From positions 2,320,687 through 2,384,686 of the forward strand of contig NZ_CH724156.1 of the NCBI RefSeq assembly GCF_000152625.1: a DNA stretch of 64,000 nt. Reading direction: 5' to 3'. The translations under genes were made by a program, and so were the position numbers. Under the pieces are notes generated by a model. The model ran no database searches, was not told where the DNA came from, and saw nothing but the letters and a program-made list of their open reading frames with translations. This DNA comes from Roseovarius nubinhibens ISM. Its GTDB lineage: Bacteria > Pseudomonadota > Alphaproteobacteria > Rhodobacterales > Rhodobacteraceae. Below, one piece after another: positions 6,184 to 58,911 of this stretch. Each line of letters begins with the position of its first letter. Position 1 is the stretch's first letter.

Positions 6184-6828
6184 TTATTTCGAGCGCCAGC
6201 TGTCGCGCCAGCGGCGCAGCCGCGACCGGCGGTCGTTGATCGCGTTTCCGGCGGCGTCCCAGCTGTCTTCGATATCGTCAAAGACCGGGTCGATGCGGCG
6301 CGCGCGAAACCGCCGCCAGCGCACCCAGATCGCCCAGACCGTGGCAAAGAACAGCGTCAGGATGATGATGTTGAGCCAGGGGATCGGGCTGTAATCCGGG
6401 CCCGGCGCGGGCTTGATCGAGATCGCGTTGGGAAAGATCGTCAGGAACTCGTTGCGCCAGCCGTAGTGTTTGACCACGTACCATTCCGGGTTGGCCTTGG
6501 TCGAGACGGCGTCATTGGCCTCGGTATAGAGATTGGCGGTGTCGAATTTGAAATAGGGCGGCCAGCGCCAGCCGGTGTCCTCGTTGCGATAGACGATGGC
6601 GCGGCCATTGGGGCGCACCGCCTGAATGAACTGCACGTCGCGATTGGCGAGCGAGGTGGATTGATCCTCGGGCTCCGACCAGAAGATCCGGGTCCAATCG
6701 GTCAGATCCTGCCGTTCCTCATAGGTGTTGACGATGCGCACCGTGTCATGCTGCGGCAGCGTGTAGTGAAAGAAGATCGCGACAGCCGCCCAGAAGGTCA
6801 GCCAGAACGCCCATTTGAGGTAAACCAT
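6184..6828 (-). CDS. DUF1523 family membrane protein
   Basis: A 214-residue protein with one N-terminal membrane helix (about residues 5-25, LKWAFWLTFWAAVAIFF), a soluble middle part rich in aromatic residues, and a second helix near residues 148-168. The C-terminal tail is strongly basic and cytoplasmic (RRFRARR, RSRLRRWRDSWR). This layout matches the DUF1523 family, which has no known function and is common in Rhodobacteraceae. AAAGG lies before the start. It is the last gene of the long minus-strand run and is separated by 11 bases from the small membrane protein upstream, so the two are probably co-translated partners. Confidence 0.75.
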   Translation of the reverse strand: MVYLKWAFWLTFWAAVAIFFHYTLPQHDTVRIVNTYEERQDLTDWTRIFWSEPEDQSTSLANRDVQFIQAVRPNGRAIVYRNEDTGWRWPPYFKFDTANLYTEANDAVSTKANPEWYVVKHYGWRNEFLTIFPNAISIKPAPGPDYSPIPWLNIIILTLFFATVWAIWVRWRRFRARRIDPVFDDIEDSWDAAGNAINDRRSRLRRWRDSWRSK

Positions 6829-53271: not shown

Positions 53272-54384
53272 CTATTGCGCTTGGGCGTAGAGATAGCCCA
53301 GACCGGCGGCGAGCAGCGCGCCGAGGATGACGGCGATGGTGATCTTGATGGCCGACCAAGGGCGTTCGCCCTGCACCCGGCCAGTGCGGCCATTGACCAC
53401 GAACCGGTAGGTTTTGCCGCGGTATTTATAGGCCGCGAGCCAGACCGGCAGCAGGATATGTTTGAAGGTCACGTCGCTGATCGCGGTGTCGATATCGTGG
53501 ATGCGCTGGCGGTCGCCGCCGATGTCGAATTTCACGTCGCGGGCGATCACCCGGTCCATATGGGCGCGGGCCTCGTCAAAGCCGGTGTCGAGATCGACCG
53601 TATAGGCCTCGGCCCGAAATCCGGCAAGATATTCAGGACGATAGGGTTCGAGCGCCGCGAGATCCCAGGGCTCTAGCGCGTCGGTATAGCGTTTCGGCAG
53701 GGAGGTGGAGCCGAGCACGAGCACGTCGTCGAAGAAGCGCGCGACGCGGCCTGTGACGGCGCGCCAGCGGATTTTGGCGACGCGCTGGGTCTGGCGTTTG
53801 CCGTCGCGCATGACGGTGCGGTTCTCGTAATAGACCGTGCCGCGTTCGCCGCGATAGCGGCTTTTCGTATCGGCGTCGAAGGTCCAGTAGGGGACGTAAA
53901 TTCCCTGCATTTTCCGACCCTTGCGGGCATATTCCTGCAGCCCGCCGGGGGCAAACCAGAGCCCTCCGAGCCAGTCGGTCATGGCCTGCCGCGCGGCGCG
54001 TTCTTCGAGGGCGAAGGGGAGGAGGGCGCGGGGTTTTATGTGGCGGTTGGGGCCGGTGTCGGTGACCACGGGGGTGGCGCAGAACGGGCATTCGGCGGCG
54101 TGGGTGGCGGCGTCAAACTCGAACACCGCGCCGCAGTTGGGGCAATTGACCGTGCGCGTTTCTTCGATTTCTTGCGCAGGCAGCAAGTCATTGATGGCGC
54201 TGCGAAAATCGAGCTCGTTGATGGCGTGGGGGGCGCTGGCGCGTTCGATCTCGCGGGTGTTGCCGCAGAAATCGCAGACCAGTTGATCGGCGCCCGGGTC
54301 ATAGCGATAGTCGCCGCCGCAATTGTCGCAGGGAAAGCGGTATTGCGTCGGTAAAGCGTCGGTATCTGGTCGGTGCGGAATCAT
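53272..54384 (-). CDS. Zinc-ribbon membrane protein of the TelA/SPFH cluster
   Basis: A 370-residue protein with two zinc ribbons, CDNC...CDFC (about residues 19-40) and CPNC...CPFC (about 80-100), a long soluble domain (IYVPYWTFDADTKSRYRGERG) and one C-terminal helix (AIKITIAVILGALLAAGLGYLY, partly cited). Such proteins are often named after replication factor Y without good reason. The only start is the ATG at 54384; it has no ribosome site, and the first 17 codons run through repeat array C. Last gene of the cluster; its stop lies next to that of rpiR. Confidence 0.78.
   Translation of the reverse strand: MIPHRPDTDALPTQYRFPCDNCGGDYRYDPGADQLVCDFCGNTREIERASAPHAINELDFRSAINDLLPAQEIEETRTVNCPNCGAVFEFDAATHAAECPFCATPVVTDTGPNRHIKPRALLPFALEERAARQAMTDWLGGLWFAPGGLQEYARKGRKMQGIYVPYWTFDADTKSRYRGERGTVYYENRTVMRDGKRQTQRVAKIRWRAVTGRVARFFDDVLVLGSTSLPKRYTDALEPWDLAALEPYRPEYLAGFRAEAYTVDLDTGFDEARAHMDRVIARDVKFDIGGDRQRIHDIDTAISDVTFKHILLPVWLAAYKYRGKTYRFVVNGRTGRVQGERPWSAIKITIAVILGALLAAGLGYLYAQAQ
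54335..54378. repeat. 11-bp direct-repeat array C (consensus CGTCGGTATTG)
   Basis: Units AAGCGGTATTG, CGTCGGTAAAG, CGTCGGTATCT and GGTCGGTGCGG follow at exact 11-bp steps. Unlike arrays A and B it overlaps the 5' end of a gene, the zinc-ribbon protein, where it encodes HRPDTDALPTQYR. Confidence 0.8.
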
Positions 54385-54441: not shown

Positions 54442-55569
54442 CTAGCCTGCGGGCGGCGGTGGCGGCGGCATGACGGTGAAGAGCTGGGCCAATTCGCGCA
54501 CGTCGCCGGCGCGCAGCCAGCCATCCTGACCCGGGGTCCAGACATGGGTGTCGCGGCTCAGGCTGCCGTCACCGGCCATGCGGCCCATATCGGCCTTGGA
54601 GAAGGGGCCGCGGGTCTGGCCGGCCTCGGCGATATGCCAGACATGTTCCACGGGGGGCGGCGGCGGAGCGGGCTGGGCCTGGGCCGGGCGGGCGCCCCAG
54701 GGGCCGGATTGCGGGCTCTGCTGGCCCGACATCTGCTGTGCCATGGCAAGCCCCATGCCCGCGCCGAGACCGGCGGCCATGCCGCCACCAGCCGGGTTGC
54801 GGGCGGCCTCGGTCATCGCCTCGGCGGCGGAATATTGGGTGAAGCGGCCAAGATCGCCGGCGACGCCCATCGAGGTGCGTTTGTCGAGCGCCGCTTCGAC
54901 GGCGGCGGGCAGCGAGATGTTTTCGATATAGAGCTCGGGGATGGAGAGGCCGTATTCGGCCACGGTGGCGGAGATGGCGGCGGCGACCAGCTTGCCCAGG
55001 TCGGCGGTGTTGGCGGCCATGTCGAGCACCGGGATGCCGGAGCTGGCCAGCACGCGCGAGGCCTCTTGCACGATGATGTTGCGGATCTGGTAGCTGATCT
55101 CGTCCATGGTAAATTCGCCGTCGGTGCCGACGATTTCGACGAGGAATTTCGCGGGGTCCGTGACGCGCACGGAATAGGTGCCATAGGCGCGCAGCCGGGT
55201 CGGGCCGAACTCTGGATCGCGCAGCATGATCGGGTTCTTGGTGCCCCATTTGAGATCGTTGAACCGGGTCGTGTTGACGAAATAGATCTCGGATTTGAAG
55301 GGCGATTTGAAACCGTGATCCCAATGGTTGAGCGTGGTCAGGATCGGCATGTTGTTGGTCTCGAGCATGTAGAGACCGGGGGTGAAGACATCGGCCAGCT
55401 GACCTTCGTGGACGAAGACCGCCGCCTGACCTTCGCGCACGGTGAGCTTGGCACCATATTTGATTTCATGGCCTTCGCGCTCGAACCGCCAGACCATCGT
55501 GTCGCGGGTGTCATCGGTCCAGTGGATGATGTCGATGAATTCGCCGGTGAGAAAATCGAAAATACCCAT
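54442..55569 (-). CDS. SPFH/virion-core-like protein with C-terminal GYF-type domain
   Basis: A 375-residue protein: an N-terminal SPFH domain of the YdjI/virion-core type (AVFVHEGQLADVFTPGLYMLET, partly cited; LRAYGTYSVRV), a glycine/methionine-rich linker (GGGMAAGLGAGMGLAMAQQM), a proline-rich stretch, and a GYF_2-like module (HVWHIAEAGQTRGPFSKADM, then TQVW-like HVWTPGQDGWL). It ends in a polyproline tail. SPFH proteins form membrane-bound rings or scaffolds. It lies between the zinc-ribbon and DUF2927 genes, 19 bases after the latter, and follows the TelA and XpaC genes. Confidence 0.85.
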   Translation of the reverse strand: MGIFDFLTGEFIDIIHWTDDTRDTMVWRFEREGHEIKYGAKLTVREGQAAVFVHEGQLADVFTPGLYMLETNNMPILTTLNHWDHGFKSPFKSEIYFVNTTRFNDLKWGTKNPIMLRDPEFGPTRLRAYGTYSVRVTDPAKFLVEIVGTDGEFTMDEISYQIRNIIVQEASRVLASSGIPVLDMAANTADLGKLVAAAISATVAEYGLSIPELYIENISLPAAVEAALDKRTSMGVAGDLGRFTQYSAAEAMTEAARNPAGGGMAAGLGAGMGLAMAQQMSGQQSPQSGPWGARPAQAQPAPPPPPVEHVWHIAEAGQTRGPFSKADMGRMAGDGSLSRDTHVWTPGQDGWLRAGDVRELAQLFTVMPPPPPPAG

Positions 55570-55588: not shown

Positions 55589-56551
55589 TTAACTATTGCC
55601 CATGGCACGGGCGGTCAGGCGGCGCAGGATCGGCCGTGCCTCGTCGATCCCCATGCCGGGGCGCAGGGCGGGATCGTAGAGCAGGCCGAGCAGCAGCTCG
55701 TCATGGGTGGTGAGTAGGGCGAACTCGTCATCATCATTGAAGATCGAGGGCCGAGCCCGGGGGCTGTCATTGGCGAGGCCCATGCCTTGGGCCATTTCTT
55801 CGTGCACGCAGGAGCGGCGCATCAGCTCGGGCTGTTCGGCGCGCACGAAGGCCACCGCGCGGCTGTAGCTGTAGCGGCTGTCGTTCGAGCCAAAGGCCGT
55901 CACGAGGCAATAGATCGAGGGCGGCAGGTTGGCGATGAGCGAGAGCGTCGCCGAGTTCACATTGGGCGAGACCGAGCGGAGCAGCGCCTGAGCCTCGCGC
56001 GTGTCATCGGCGGTCATGAAGAAGACGTGGAAATTGGGCGCGTTGGCGGACATCGAAATGGGATGGCCGGTGACCCGGGCGAGGCGCTGGGTGAAGCCCG
56101 CGACCATCGCGCGGTCGCTGGCGCGCTGGGCCTCGGGGACGGTCGAGCCAAAGCTCGTCGAGACCCGCACCGGGCCGGTCCATTTGCGCAGCGCGCCGGG
56201 GCGGTTGGCGGCGCGGGCGCCGCTCACCGTATGTTCGTCGTAAAAGGCGATCCGTTCGAAATTGCGCAGCACGTCCGTGTCGGTAAAGACCGTGTCCGGG
56301 CCGCCGCCATCGGTGCGCAACAGCCCCTGCGATTGCAGATGCTGTTCGAGCCGGGCGTAGCGCTGCGCCAGCGACTGGCTATAGGCGGAGGGCTGTTGCG
56401 TGGCGGGCTGGGCCGCGCTCGGCGGGCGCAGCGCCGTGGGCTGGGCCGGGGCCGGGGGGGTGGGCGCCTGCGTGGCGGGCAGGCAGGCGGCGAGCGCGAA
56501 ACACGCCGCCAAGAGCCCCGTCCGCACGGATCTGCACCCCGTGATGGTCAT
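55589..56551 (-). CDS. DUF2927 family lipoprotein, possible metalloprotease fold
   Basis: A 320-residue exported protein with a lipobox (CFALAACLPA; Cys at about residue 23), a low-complexity Pro/Ala/Gln linker and a DUF2927 domain. The conserved CVHEEMAQGMGLANDSP contains HExxQ, like a zinc-peptidase helix, with further acidic residues downstream (FNDDDEFALLTTHDELLL). The start at 56551 lies 17 bases after the telA stop. Its place among cytoplasmic TelA/XpaC partners suggests an envelope-facing element of the same system. Confidence 0.8.
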   Translation of the reverse strand: MTITGCRSVRTGLLAACFALAACLPATQAPTPPAPAQPTALRPPSAAQPATQQPSAYSQSLAQRYARLEQHLQSQGLLRTDGGGPDTVFTDTDVLRNFERIAFYDEHTVSGARAANRPGALRKWTGPVRVSTSFGSTVPEAQRASDRAMVAGFTQRLARVTGHPISMSANAPNFHVFFMTADDTREAQALLRSVSPNVNSATLSLIANLPPSIYCLVTAFGSNDSRYSYSRAVAFVRAEQPELMRRSCVHEEMAQGMGLANDSPRARPSIFNDDDEFALLTTHDELLLGLLYDPALRPGMGIDEARPILRRLTARAMGNS

Positions 56552-56568
56552 CCCCGGCCCCGCCAAGA

Positions 56569-57765
56569 TCAGCTCGGGACCGCGGTGCCGGCGTTGTCGC
56601 CGGTGCCGTCGCGGCGGGCCTTGGCGGAGGCGAGCGTGTCGCGCAGCTCGGTCTCCATGCGCTTGAGCTCTTCCTCAGCGGCGGCGCGACGGGCCTTGCC
56701 TTCGTCGGCGATCTGCAGGCTTTCCTGAATGGTGCCGATGAGATCGGCATTGGCCTGTTTCACCGCTTCGATGTCGAACACGCCGCGTTCCATCTCTTCG
56801 CGGATCATCTTGTTGCTTTCGCGCAGATTTTCGGCATTGGCGGTGAGCAGCTCGTTGGTCAGGTCATTGGCGTCGCGCACCGCGGCGGCGGCGGCGGCGG
56901 AGCGCTGGATCGTGACCGCCTGCGCCAGCTGGGTTTCCCACAGCGGCACGGTGTTGACGAGGGTCGAGTTGATCTTGGTCACCAGGCTCTTGTCGTTTTC
57001 CTGCACGAGGCGGATCGACGGCAGCGATTGCATCGTCACCTGGCGGGTGAGTTTGAGATCATGCACCCGGCGTTCGAGATCGTCGCGCGCGGCGCGCAAA
57101 TCGCGCAGCTCTTGCGCCTTCATCACCTGATCTTTTTCGGGCGCGGCCTCAACCTCGGCCTCTTTGGCGGGGATGTCGACCGTGTCGAGCACCCGCAGCT
57201 TTTCCTCGCCGGCGGCGATATAAAGCGCCAGCTCGTCATAGAATTGCAGGGTTTTCTCGTAGAGCAGGTCGAGCGATTTGATGTCCTTGAGCAGCGTGTG
57301 CTCATGGCTCAGCAGATCGTCGGTGATCTTGTCGATCTGGCCCTGCACGCTTTCGAACTTGGCGGTGAACTTGGCGAAGGGGGCGGCGCGGCCGAGCAGT
57401 TTTTCCCACCAGCTGCGTTCGCGGCGCACGTCGAGTTCGGAGACCGAGAAGCCGCGGATCGTGGTGACGATCGAGCGCAGGCTGTCGCCTGCCGGGCCCA
57501 CGTCCTTGTTGCGGACGCCCTGCAGCATGGATTGCGAGATTTCCTGCAGCTCGGCCTGGGCGGCGGAGCCGAAGGAGACGATCGAATTGGTGTCCGACAT
57601 GTTGATCTCGTCCATCCGTTTCTGGATGGCGGCGCTGGTCGGTTGATCGGCCTCTTGCAGCGGCACGACCGCGTTGGCGTCGGCGGGTTCGGGCAGGATC
57701 ATGGCGCTGACTTGCTCGACTTCGGCCAATGTGGCCTCGGCCTTGGCGCGGGTGCTTTGTGACAT
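56569..57765 (-). CDS. TelA family protein (toxic anion resistance)
   Basis: A 398-residue helical protein of the TelA family (PF05816). Family features are RSWWEKLLGRAAPF, QIDKITDDLLSHEHTLLKDIKSLD (partly cited), and MQSLPSIRLVQENDKSL. Described for tellurite resistance, it is usually found with XpaC and is thought to act in envelope stress. GAGAGGA is six bases before the ATG at 57765. It follows xpaC by 25 bases and precedes the DUF2927 gene. Confidence 0.9.
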   Translation of the reverse strand: MSQSTRAKAEATLAEVEQVSAMILPEPADANAVVPLQEADQPTSAAIQKRMDEINMSDTNSIVSFGSAAQAELQEISQSMLQGVRNKDVGPAGDSLRSIVTTIRGFSVSELDVRRERSWWEKLLGRAAPFAKFTAKFESVQGQIDKITDDLLSHEHTLLKDIKSLDLLYEKTLQFYDELALYIAAGEEKLRVLDTVDIPAKEAEVEAAPEKDQVMKAQELRDLRAARDDLERRVHDLKLTRQVTMQSLPSIRLVQENDKSLVTKINSTLVNTVPLWETQLAQAVTIQRSAAAAAAVRDANDLTNELLTANAENLRESNKMIREEMERGVFDIEAVKQANADLIGTIQESLQIADEGKARRAAAEEELKRMETELRDTLASAKARRDGTGDNAGTAVPS

Positions 57766-57790: not shown

Positions 57791-58687
57791 TTAGCTGTCC
57801 AGATGGATGCCTTCACGCTGCAGGCGGTCGCGCAGGACGCTGATCTCGATCTCGAGGTCAGAATTGTTGTCTTGCAAGAGCTTGCGCGTCTTGGCGGTGA
57901 AATTCTCTTCGAGATCGGTCAGCAGCATCATGTAGTCCGACCGGGCGCCGGCATCGCGGGAGCGGGCGTAGATATCGGCAAATTTGATCGTCGCGTCGGT
58001 GGCGCCCTTGAGGTAGACGCCGAGATAGCGCCGGGCGGCGGTGAGATCGCGCGGGTCCTCTTCGACCGTGCGCAGCATCTCGCGCACCTTGGTCTGAAAC
58101 CGCTCGACGCGGGCCTCGGCCTGACGGTCGCCCGAGCGCAGGATGGCGTCGCGCATGGCGGCGAGATGGGCCTCGGCCTGATCGACGACGCGGGCGACGC
58201 GGTCGGTCTGATGCTGGTCGATGCCCTCCATCCCCTTGTCGCGCAGCGGGTCGAGACCGAAGGCAAAGCCGTGCAGCAGGGTGCCGGCCACCAGATAGAC
58301 CAGCGCGGCGAGCGTGCCGCCGCCTGCGGCAAAGCCTGCGAGGCCGAGACCGATCCCAGTCAGCAGCGAGCCGGCCATCTTGCGCGGCACGCCGGGGCGG
58401 CGGGCCACCTTGCGGGCGTCATAGGCCTCTTGCGCGATGATGCCCTCGCGGCTGAGCCAGGCGGCGAGCAAAAGAGCGCCCAATGCCAAGAGGTTAAGCG
58501 CCATGGCGGAGGCGCCGTTGCCAAAGGCCTGCCAGATCAGCGGCAGCGGCGCGAGGAAGAGGAAATTGACGCGGCCCCCGGCGCGGGTGCGTTTTGCATC
58601 GCGATAGGTGCCGATGTCCGGGGTGGTCTCGGTCGGGTCCGTGTCGGTGGGGTCGGGGCTATATTTGCCGCCATATCTCTGCGCCAT
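57791..58687 (-). CDS. XpaC-like 5-bromo-4-chloroindolyl phosphate hydrolysis family protein
   Basis: A 298-residue protein with a short polar N-terminus, two hydrophobic hairpins (about residues 40-75 and 105-145) and a C-terminal helical domain (RVARVVDQAEAHLAAMRDAI; TEENFTAK-like DLEENFTAKTRKLLQDN). This is the XpaC architecture, whose genes travel with telA. AGGAGG stands before the ATG at 58687, which overlaps the TGA of the 27-residue gene. The name comes from an assay phenotype in Bacillus; hydrolase activity is not shown by the sequence. Confidence 0.82.
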   Translation of the reverse strand: MAQRYGGKYSPDPTDTDPTETTPDIGTYRDAKRTRAGGRVNFLFLAPLPLIWQAFGNGASAMALNLLALGALLLAAWLSREGIIAQEAYDARKVARRPGVPRKMAGSLLTGIGLGLAGFAAGGGTLAALVYLVAGTLLHGFAFGLDPLRDKGMEGIDQHQTDRVARVVDQAEAHLAAMRDAILRSGDRQAEARVERFQTKVREMLRTVEEDPRDLTAARRYLGVYLKGATDATIKFADIYARSRDAGARSDYMMLLTDLEENFTAKTRKLLQDNNSDLEIEISVLRDRLQREGIHLDS

Positions 58688-58770
58688 CACACGCCTCCTG
58701 CGACGGTCACATAGAGGATCAATATGACAAGCAGAAAAAAGGCCAGTTTCTGCAACCCGGTTCCCGACAT
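58687..58770 (-). CDS. 27-aa single-helix membrane peptide, coupled to xpaC
   Basis: ATG at 58770 to TGA at 58687-58689 encodes MSGTGLQKLAFFLLVILILY then VTVAGGV. Residues 9-24 form one hydrophobic helix after a single Lys. GTGGGGG lies five to six bases before the ATG, and the stop overlaps the xpaC start as TGATG, so translation would be coupled. No family is recognised. Position and coupling suggest a small subunit or regulator of the TelA/XpaC complex. Confidence 0.7.
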   Translation of the reverse strand: MSGTGLQKLAFFLLVILILYVTVAGGV

Positions 58771-58911
58771 TCAACCCCCACAAGCCTTGGTTTCTCGTCA
58801 ATAACTTAGGGGATGCAAGGCAGGCTTGCTAGGGGGAAGATTGGCAGGGGCGAAACATCGCCCCCGCCGCTGTCTCTTGCCGTCGGGCCTATGACCCGCT
58901 CAGCGACCCGA

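Follow-up and report, generated by a model that had tools for sequence, protein, structure and literature searches.

A 27-residue open reading frame immediately ahead of xpaC in Roseovarius nubinhibens ISM is a genuine, conserved protein-coding small-protein gene under purifying selection, and its product probably acts as a single-helix accessory subunit of the XpaC–TelA membrane system. The frame lies in the window, the whole stretch of 64,000 nucleotides that was analysed, and runs on the minus strand from an ATG to a final GTG TGA, encoding MSGTGLQKLAFFLLVILILYVTVAGGV. An earlier note had claimed at 58687-58770 a frame with its own start, ribosome site, TGATG junction and one hydrophobic helix, and all of these were recovered in the sequence as described. 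The peptide TGA (58689-58687) and the xpaC ATG (58687-58685) share one A, and an SD-like 4-mer precedes 77 of 81 peptide starts against a background of 11.7%. The best 15-residue hydropathy of the window peptide is 3.07, with values above 1.8 in all of the relatives' rows printed; judged by this hydrophobic stretch of membrane-spanning length, the peptide is predicted to insert as a single-helix small membrane protein. A search for a sigma-70-type promoter between the peptide and terC, which lies 141 nt upstream, revealed no promoter-like site, and terminator-like sites in the same interval were no commoner than in shuffles.

Table. Coordinates of the small-protein gene, its putative ribosome sites and the downstream genes in the window.
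Feature	Position	Strand	Evidence
Predicted single-helix peptide MSGTGLQKLAFFLLVILILYVTVAGGV	58687..58770, stop included	(-)	ORF; 80/80 xpaC relatives; pN/pS 0.34
GGGGG, likely peptide ribosome site	58775..58779	(-)	4 nt 5' of ATG; SD-like motif
GGAGG, likely xpaC ribosome site	58694..58698	(-)	within the peptide's last codons
xpaC, 298 aa	57791..58687	(-)	PF10112 E 5e-25; start overlaps peptide stop
telA, toxic anion resistance protein	56569..57765	(-)	PF05816 (scan began at 57762)
DUF2927 protein	55589..56566	(-)	PF11150
SPFH/Band 7 protein with GYF_2 domain	54442..55569	(-)	domain matches
Zinc-ribbon protein, cluster end	53272..54384	(-)	weak Pfam zinc-ribbon matches only

Conservation was assessed in 80 relatives collected in one scan by xpaC alone, the peptide being disregarded in the choice. 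A homologous peptide was found immediately upstream of xpaC in all 80, so loss of the frame where the xpaC start is kept, one of the outcomes the earlier note had named as counting against its claim, did not occur; in two relatives (L058 and L073) the usual ATG is absent and the start is uncertain. With the window included, 62 of 81 peptides are 27 residues long and 13 have 29 residues with the typical end FGVSSGWLGGL; the consensus reads MSxTGLQKLAFxLLVxLILYVSxxGGx. We applied the coding test to the 62 members of 27 residues. Mean column entropies at codon positions 1, 2 and 3 were 0.74, 0.43 and 1.33, and pN/pS of the peptide frame over all pairs (Table) fell to 0.28 when measured against the window. 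The other five frames gave pN/pS of 0.42-2.4 and carried stops in 8 to 51 of the 62 members, and the 81 nt upstream of the peptide contain an in-frame stop in 61 of 80 relatives. Residues G5, L6, Q7, K8, L13, L14, L17 and V21 show almost no variation or none. Variability along the peptide tracks a helical period, the largest moment falling at 100 degrees (permutation p 0.03).

The gene is tightly linked to xpaC throughout the order. Among 149 genomes drawn from the order, 146 of which contain PF10112, the peptide profile matched 110, once in each. In all but one case (109/110) the peptide match shares its strand with the xpaC domain match and sits 288-456 nt upstream of it; the exception (G137) is near a contig end. 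The three genomes that lack xpaC also lack a peptide match. In the 36 xpaC-containing genomes without a profile match, a diverged hydrophobic peptide occupies the same place, all of these being judged by eye with no statistic attached (34 from a hydropathy scan and the last two, G014 and G110, from their reading frames). The peptide is encoded with xpaC and lost with it, the pattern of a membrane-complex subunit of the CydX or KdpF kind. Three genomes of the family carry a second, weaker xpaC-like gene (L152-L154, at G090:C48, G018:C28 and G047:C5) with no typical peptide ahead of it; the G090 copy has an ambiguous hydrophobic stretch.

At the junction of the two genes, the peptide stop codon begins 2-8 nt ahead of the xpaC start. 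The translational coupling proposed in the earlier note is real, but its exact TGATG-type overlap (stop at -2) holds in only 48 of 80 rows, window included, and the spacing varies. Gly25-Gly26 is near-invariant in the peptide. In the 77 of 81 members entered into the test, the first codon of the terminal Gly-Gly is GGA or GGG in 70, compared with 29% of xpaC Gly codons (p 5e-30), and the distance from the end of a GGRGG stretch to the xpaC start is 3-12 nt (mode 6). This codon bias and spacing place the xpaC ribosome site within the peptide gene, and the conservation of the terminal Gly-Gly is due at least in part to these codons serving as the xpaC Shine-Dalgarno site. On this pattern the coupling looks like a selected feature. 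Outside the terminal Gly-Gly, the peptide is constrained as a protein, which coupling does not account for.

Beyond the order, we sampled PF10112 genes elsewhere in the class, in the phylum and in the class of genome G705, whose label "gamma" is taken from kinship labels. A fixed rule was used, counting frames of 20-45 residues with an ATG or GTG start that are hydrophobic and end between -80 and +150 of the first xpaC start. Under this rule, a mini-ORF was present before 15 of 22 telA-linked xpaC loci outside the family versus 0 of 22 telA-less ones; 4 of 38 other genes in the 64-kb window, taken as controls under the same loose rule, were preceded by a hydrophobic mini-ORF. Inspection by eye, with TTG starts and lower hydropathy allowed, raised the telA-linked count to 20 of 22, the two without a clear peptide being L090 and L094; the L163 peptide is weak because of its gap of about 70 nt. 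These 44 loci exclude L083 (contig end) and L166, L185-L188, L190, L203 and L204 (domain match weak or partial); the weak loci L096, L098 and L168 were kept in the telA-less group. The Fisher values of the comparison, 1.5e-6 and 6.5e-6, are descriptive because phylogeny links the rows. In one other alphaproteobacterial family, the peptide was found at 18 of 19 readable xpaC loci, L224 being without a clear one and the cut-off loci L217 and L222 falling outside the 19. The distant peptides are typified by MPRAITKTIGFVLLFATLGFVSWQALFIVF and MNMVLRKVGGFMLLVATLGVASCQALFVHAF. Purifying selection extends to the four outside groups that were tested, with pN/pS of 0.17, 0.29, 0.14 and 0.31, the last two from one pair each. 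A plasmid of Candidatus Thiodictyon syntrophicum encodes a related 47-residue peptide 12 nt before an xpaC that has no adjoining telA. This peptide is already annotated, as "hypothetical protein", which shows that annotation does not always overlook the wider family.

Whether these peptides form one family was addressed with profiles from both sides. The Rhodobacterales peptide profile, searched elsewhere in the class, hit 8 genomes outside the family, all at E>=0.02 and none convincing. The gamma profile scored a mean of 7.75 bits on 16 non-Rhodobacterales alphaproteobacterial peptides (largest shuffle mean 2.44) and 5.31 bits on the 81 Rhodobacterales peptides (largest shuffle mean 2.47); none of 200 shuffles that preserved the hydropathy pattern reached either mean. 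Conversely, the Rhodobacterales profile scored 1.94 on the 30 others versus 0.81 in shuffles. On 25 diverged Rhodobacterales peptides the gamma profile was marginal, its score of 2.14 being reached by 3 of 200 shuffles. These scores favour common descent of the peptides across groups, although the rows are related, the sequences are short and convergence on a simple helix is possible. The window peptide matched no Pfam family at E<=1, and the 81 members hit just LapA_dom, TMEM210 and RAMP4 in Pfam, all at E>=0.14. Nothing convincing emerged when the peptide was compared with Pfam, NCBIfam, PADLOC and PDB sequences. By these comparisons the peptides are a putative new family of small single-helix membrane proteins, for which no Pfam or NCBIfam model was found; available portions of the literature on XpaC/TelA and on small membrane proteins of Rhodobacter and Rhodobacterales yielded no treatment of the peptide. 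A model of peptide and XpaC joined by read-through had a pLDDT of 86.4 and a pTM of 0.68, with 70, 86 and 74 for the first three ten-residue blocks, these being confidence values only and silent on contacts. Foldseek of this model against the PDB returned no match at E<=0.001.

Several other explanations of the frame were weighed against a subunit role. That it is a chance ORF is hardly credible: the four control genes in the window show that hydrophobic mini-ORFs do arise ahead of other genes, but the conserved frame, length and residues together with the selection refute this reading. The frame might instead be a leader for translational coupling, in which passing ribosomes expose the xpaC ribosome site and the peptide itself is inert. 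Both the frequent TGATG-type overlap and the GGA/GGG preference, the latter as expected of an xpaC Shine-Dalgarno site, agree with such a leader; it is rather unlikely all the same, given that amino-acid selection spans the whole peptide, that conservation has a helical periodicity and that other classes keep the peptide even though they often have a wider gap to xpaC and lack the GG end. We also consider it unlikely that the peptide is a free regulator of the AcrZ or stress-peptide type, acting elsewhere among the operon's membrane proteins (TelA recruitment, the SPFH scaffold, TerC) and not as a fixed XpaC subunit. Three genes do accompany it on the same strand downstream of xpaC in every readable relative (telA in 78/78, the DUF2927 gene in 75/75 and the SPFH gene in 71/71), yet the association is closest with the xpaC start, and a same-strand terC no more than 1500 nt upstream occurs in just 25 of 78.

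That the peptide is a small lipoprotein, or is cleaved in the manner of a signal peptide, in at least some lineages is very improbable as an explanation. The helices of several relatives end in lipobox-like VASC, LVTC, LPAC, LVSC or IPSC, in some cases with a polar tail behind the motif, and one relative gave a Pfam LPAM_1 match at E 0.3, below its cut-off. Against this, the window peptide has neither a Cys nor a lipobox, Cys is rare among the 81 members, and kin of the Cys-bearing forms carry Trp, Leu or Ile at that position. Peptides with a lipobox-like Cys occur upstream of xpaC at L191, L192, L194, L196, L200, L184, L206, L211 and L218, and L145 and L150 also have one at the helix end; motifs across the set include TASC and VTSC. 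Some lineages may lipidate the peptide.

We therefore retain the accessory-subunit reading as the probable one. The earlier note had suggested a subunit or regulator of an XpaC/TelA complex; genomics supports the choice of partner, through the placement by xpaC of nearly all profile matches, the lack of a match in genomes without xpaC and, outside the family, the occurrence with telA-linked and not with telA-less xpaC, while topology, XpaC binding and the effect of the peptide are what we infer. In the mechanism we propose, one helix (about residues 9-24) would insert the peptide into the inner membrane, with the N-terminus and the conserved Lys8 probably inside. The peptide would be translated just ahead of xpaC on a shared message and terminating ribosomes would pass on to xpaC, so that peptide and XpaC would arise next to each other in matched amounts. 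The conserved helix face (around A10, L14, L17 and V21, with 12, 16, 19 and 23 variable) could then pack against the membrane portion of XpaC, with a stabilising or tuning effect on it, and the peptide would be an accessory subunit of an XpaC–TelA envelope-stress system. A broader proposal, which we put forward tentatively and hold to be somewhat doubtful, is that a three-part XpaC–TelA system exists in several Proteobacteria classes, with the overlooked peptide as its third part, descended from one ancestor, lipidated in some lineages and setting XpaC–TelA engagement at the stressed membrane. A conserved additional part under selection would imply that studies confined to XpaC and TelA may be incomplete. 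The peptide also offers a small genetic handle, 27 residues that one stop codon would interrupt, and its presence separates two types of XpaC protein, the telA-linked ones, which have it, and the telA-less ones, which do not.

Known small membrane proteins provide precedents. KdpF, a 29-residue subunit of the Kdp potassium pump with one helix, is encoded directly ahead of the next membrane subunit, with which its gene overlaps, and comes closest to the peptide in gene layout, but its partner is a different one. CydX is encoded after the large subunits of its complex, the peptide before xpaC; AcrZ is not known to be encoded alongside its partner. The KdpF, CydX and AcrZ families all have Pfam models, and neither the window peptide nor the 81 members matched any of these three profiles. 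According to the available parts of the reports, CydX, a 37-residue subunit of cytochrome bd oxidase, resembles the peptide in being very short, with one hydrophobic helix, and in belonging to a membrane complex (PMC4325964, PMC6005532); it differs in having no sequence match to the peptide, whose partner would be XpaC–TelA and not an oxidase. AcrZ, in the accessible text on it, is a small protein that sits on the membrane part of the larger AcrB and alters its activity (PMC7267776), a likeness to a small modulator at the membrane part of a larger partner, again with no sequence match to the peptide.

XpaC and TelA themselves are widespread and, in the portions of the literature at hand, are implicated in how cells tolerate tellurite, nisin and other envelope-active agents, by a mechanism that is still unknown (PMC12791056, PMC7864038). 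The same gene pair as at the peptide locus is present as lmo1966-lmo1967 of Listeria and with yaaN of Bacillus, where the available text describes it as induced by envelope stress (PMC12791056). Passages of that report place lmo1966-1967 among LiaRS-regulated genes induced by bacteriocin and ascribe heightened nisin and tellurite sensitivity to an lmo1967 mutant, and these passages differ from our locus in making no mention of a small membrane peptide (PMC12791056). XpaC-like genes are linked with nisin, hBD3 and daptomycin in the accessible part of another study (PMC7864038).

As to the remaining neighbourhood, terC was considered as a fixed operon partner and rejected on the low same-strand count given above. 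None of the six operon proteins matched PADLOC at E<=0.01 in a search for anti-phage defence. Residues 178-241 of XpaC show a weak sequence match to the solved protein "Tako8" (6g6m; E 2e-4), in which no single stretch passes the limit. The zinc-ribbon protein at the end of the cluster has a hydrophobic segment at its C-terminus. Elsewhere in the window, a 38-residue hydrophobic ORF, MDDGLRDYDRSLRRKLILGVYVIPVIIVSVIIYLTNFH, ends 14 nt ahead of the first start of the gene at 6184-6828 (minus strand) and may be another small membrane protein.
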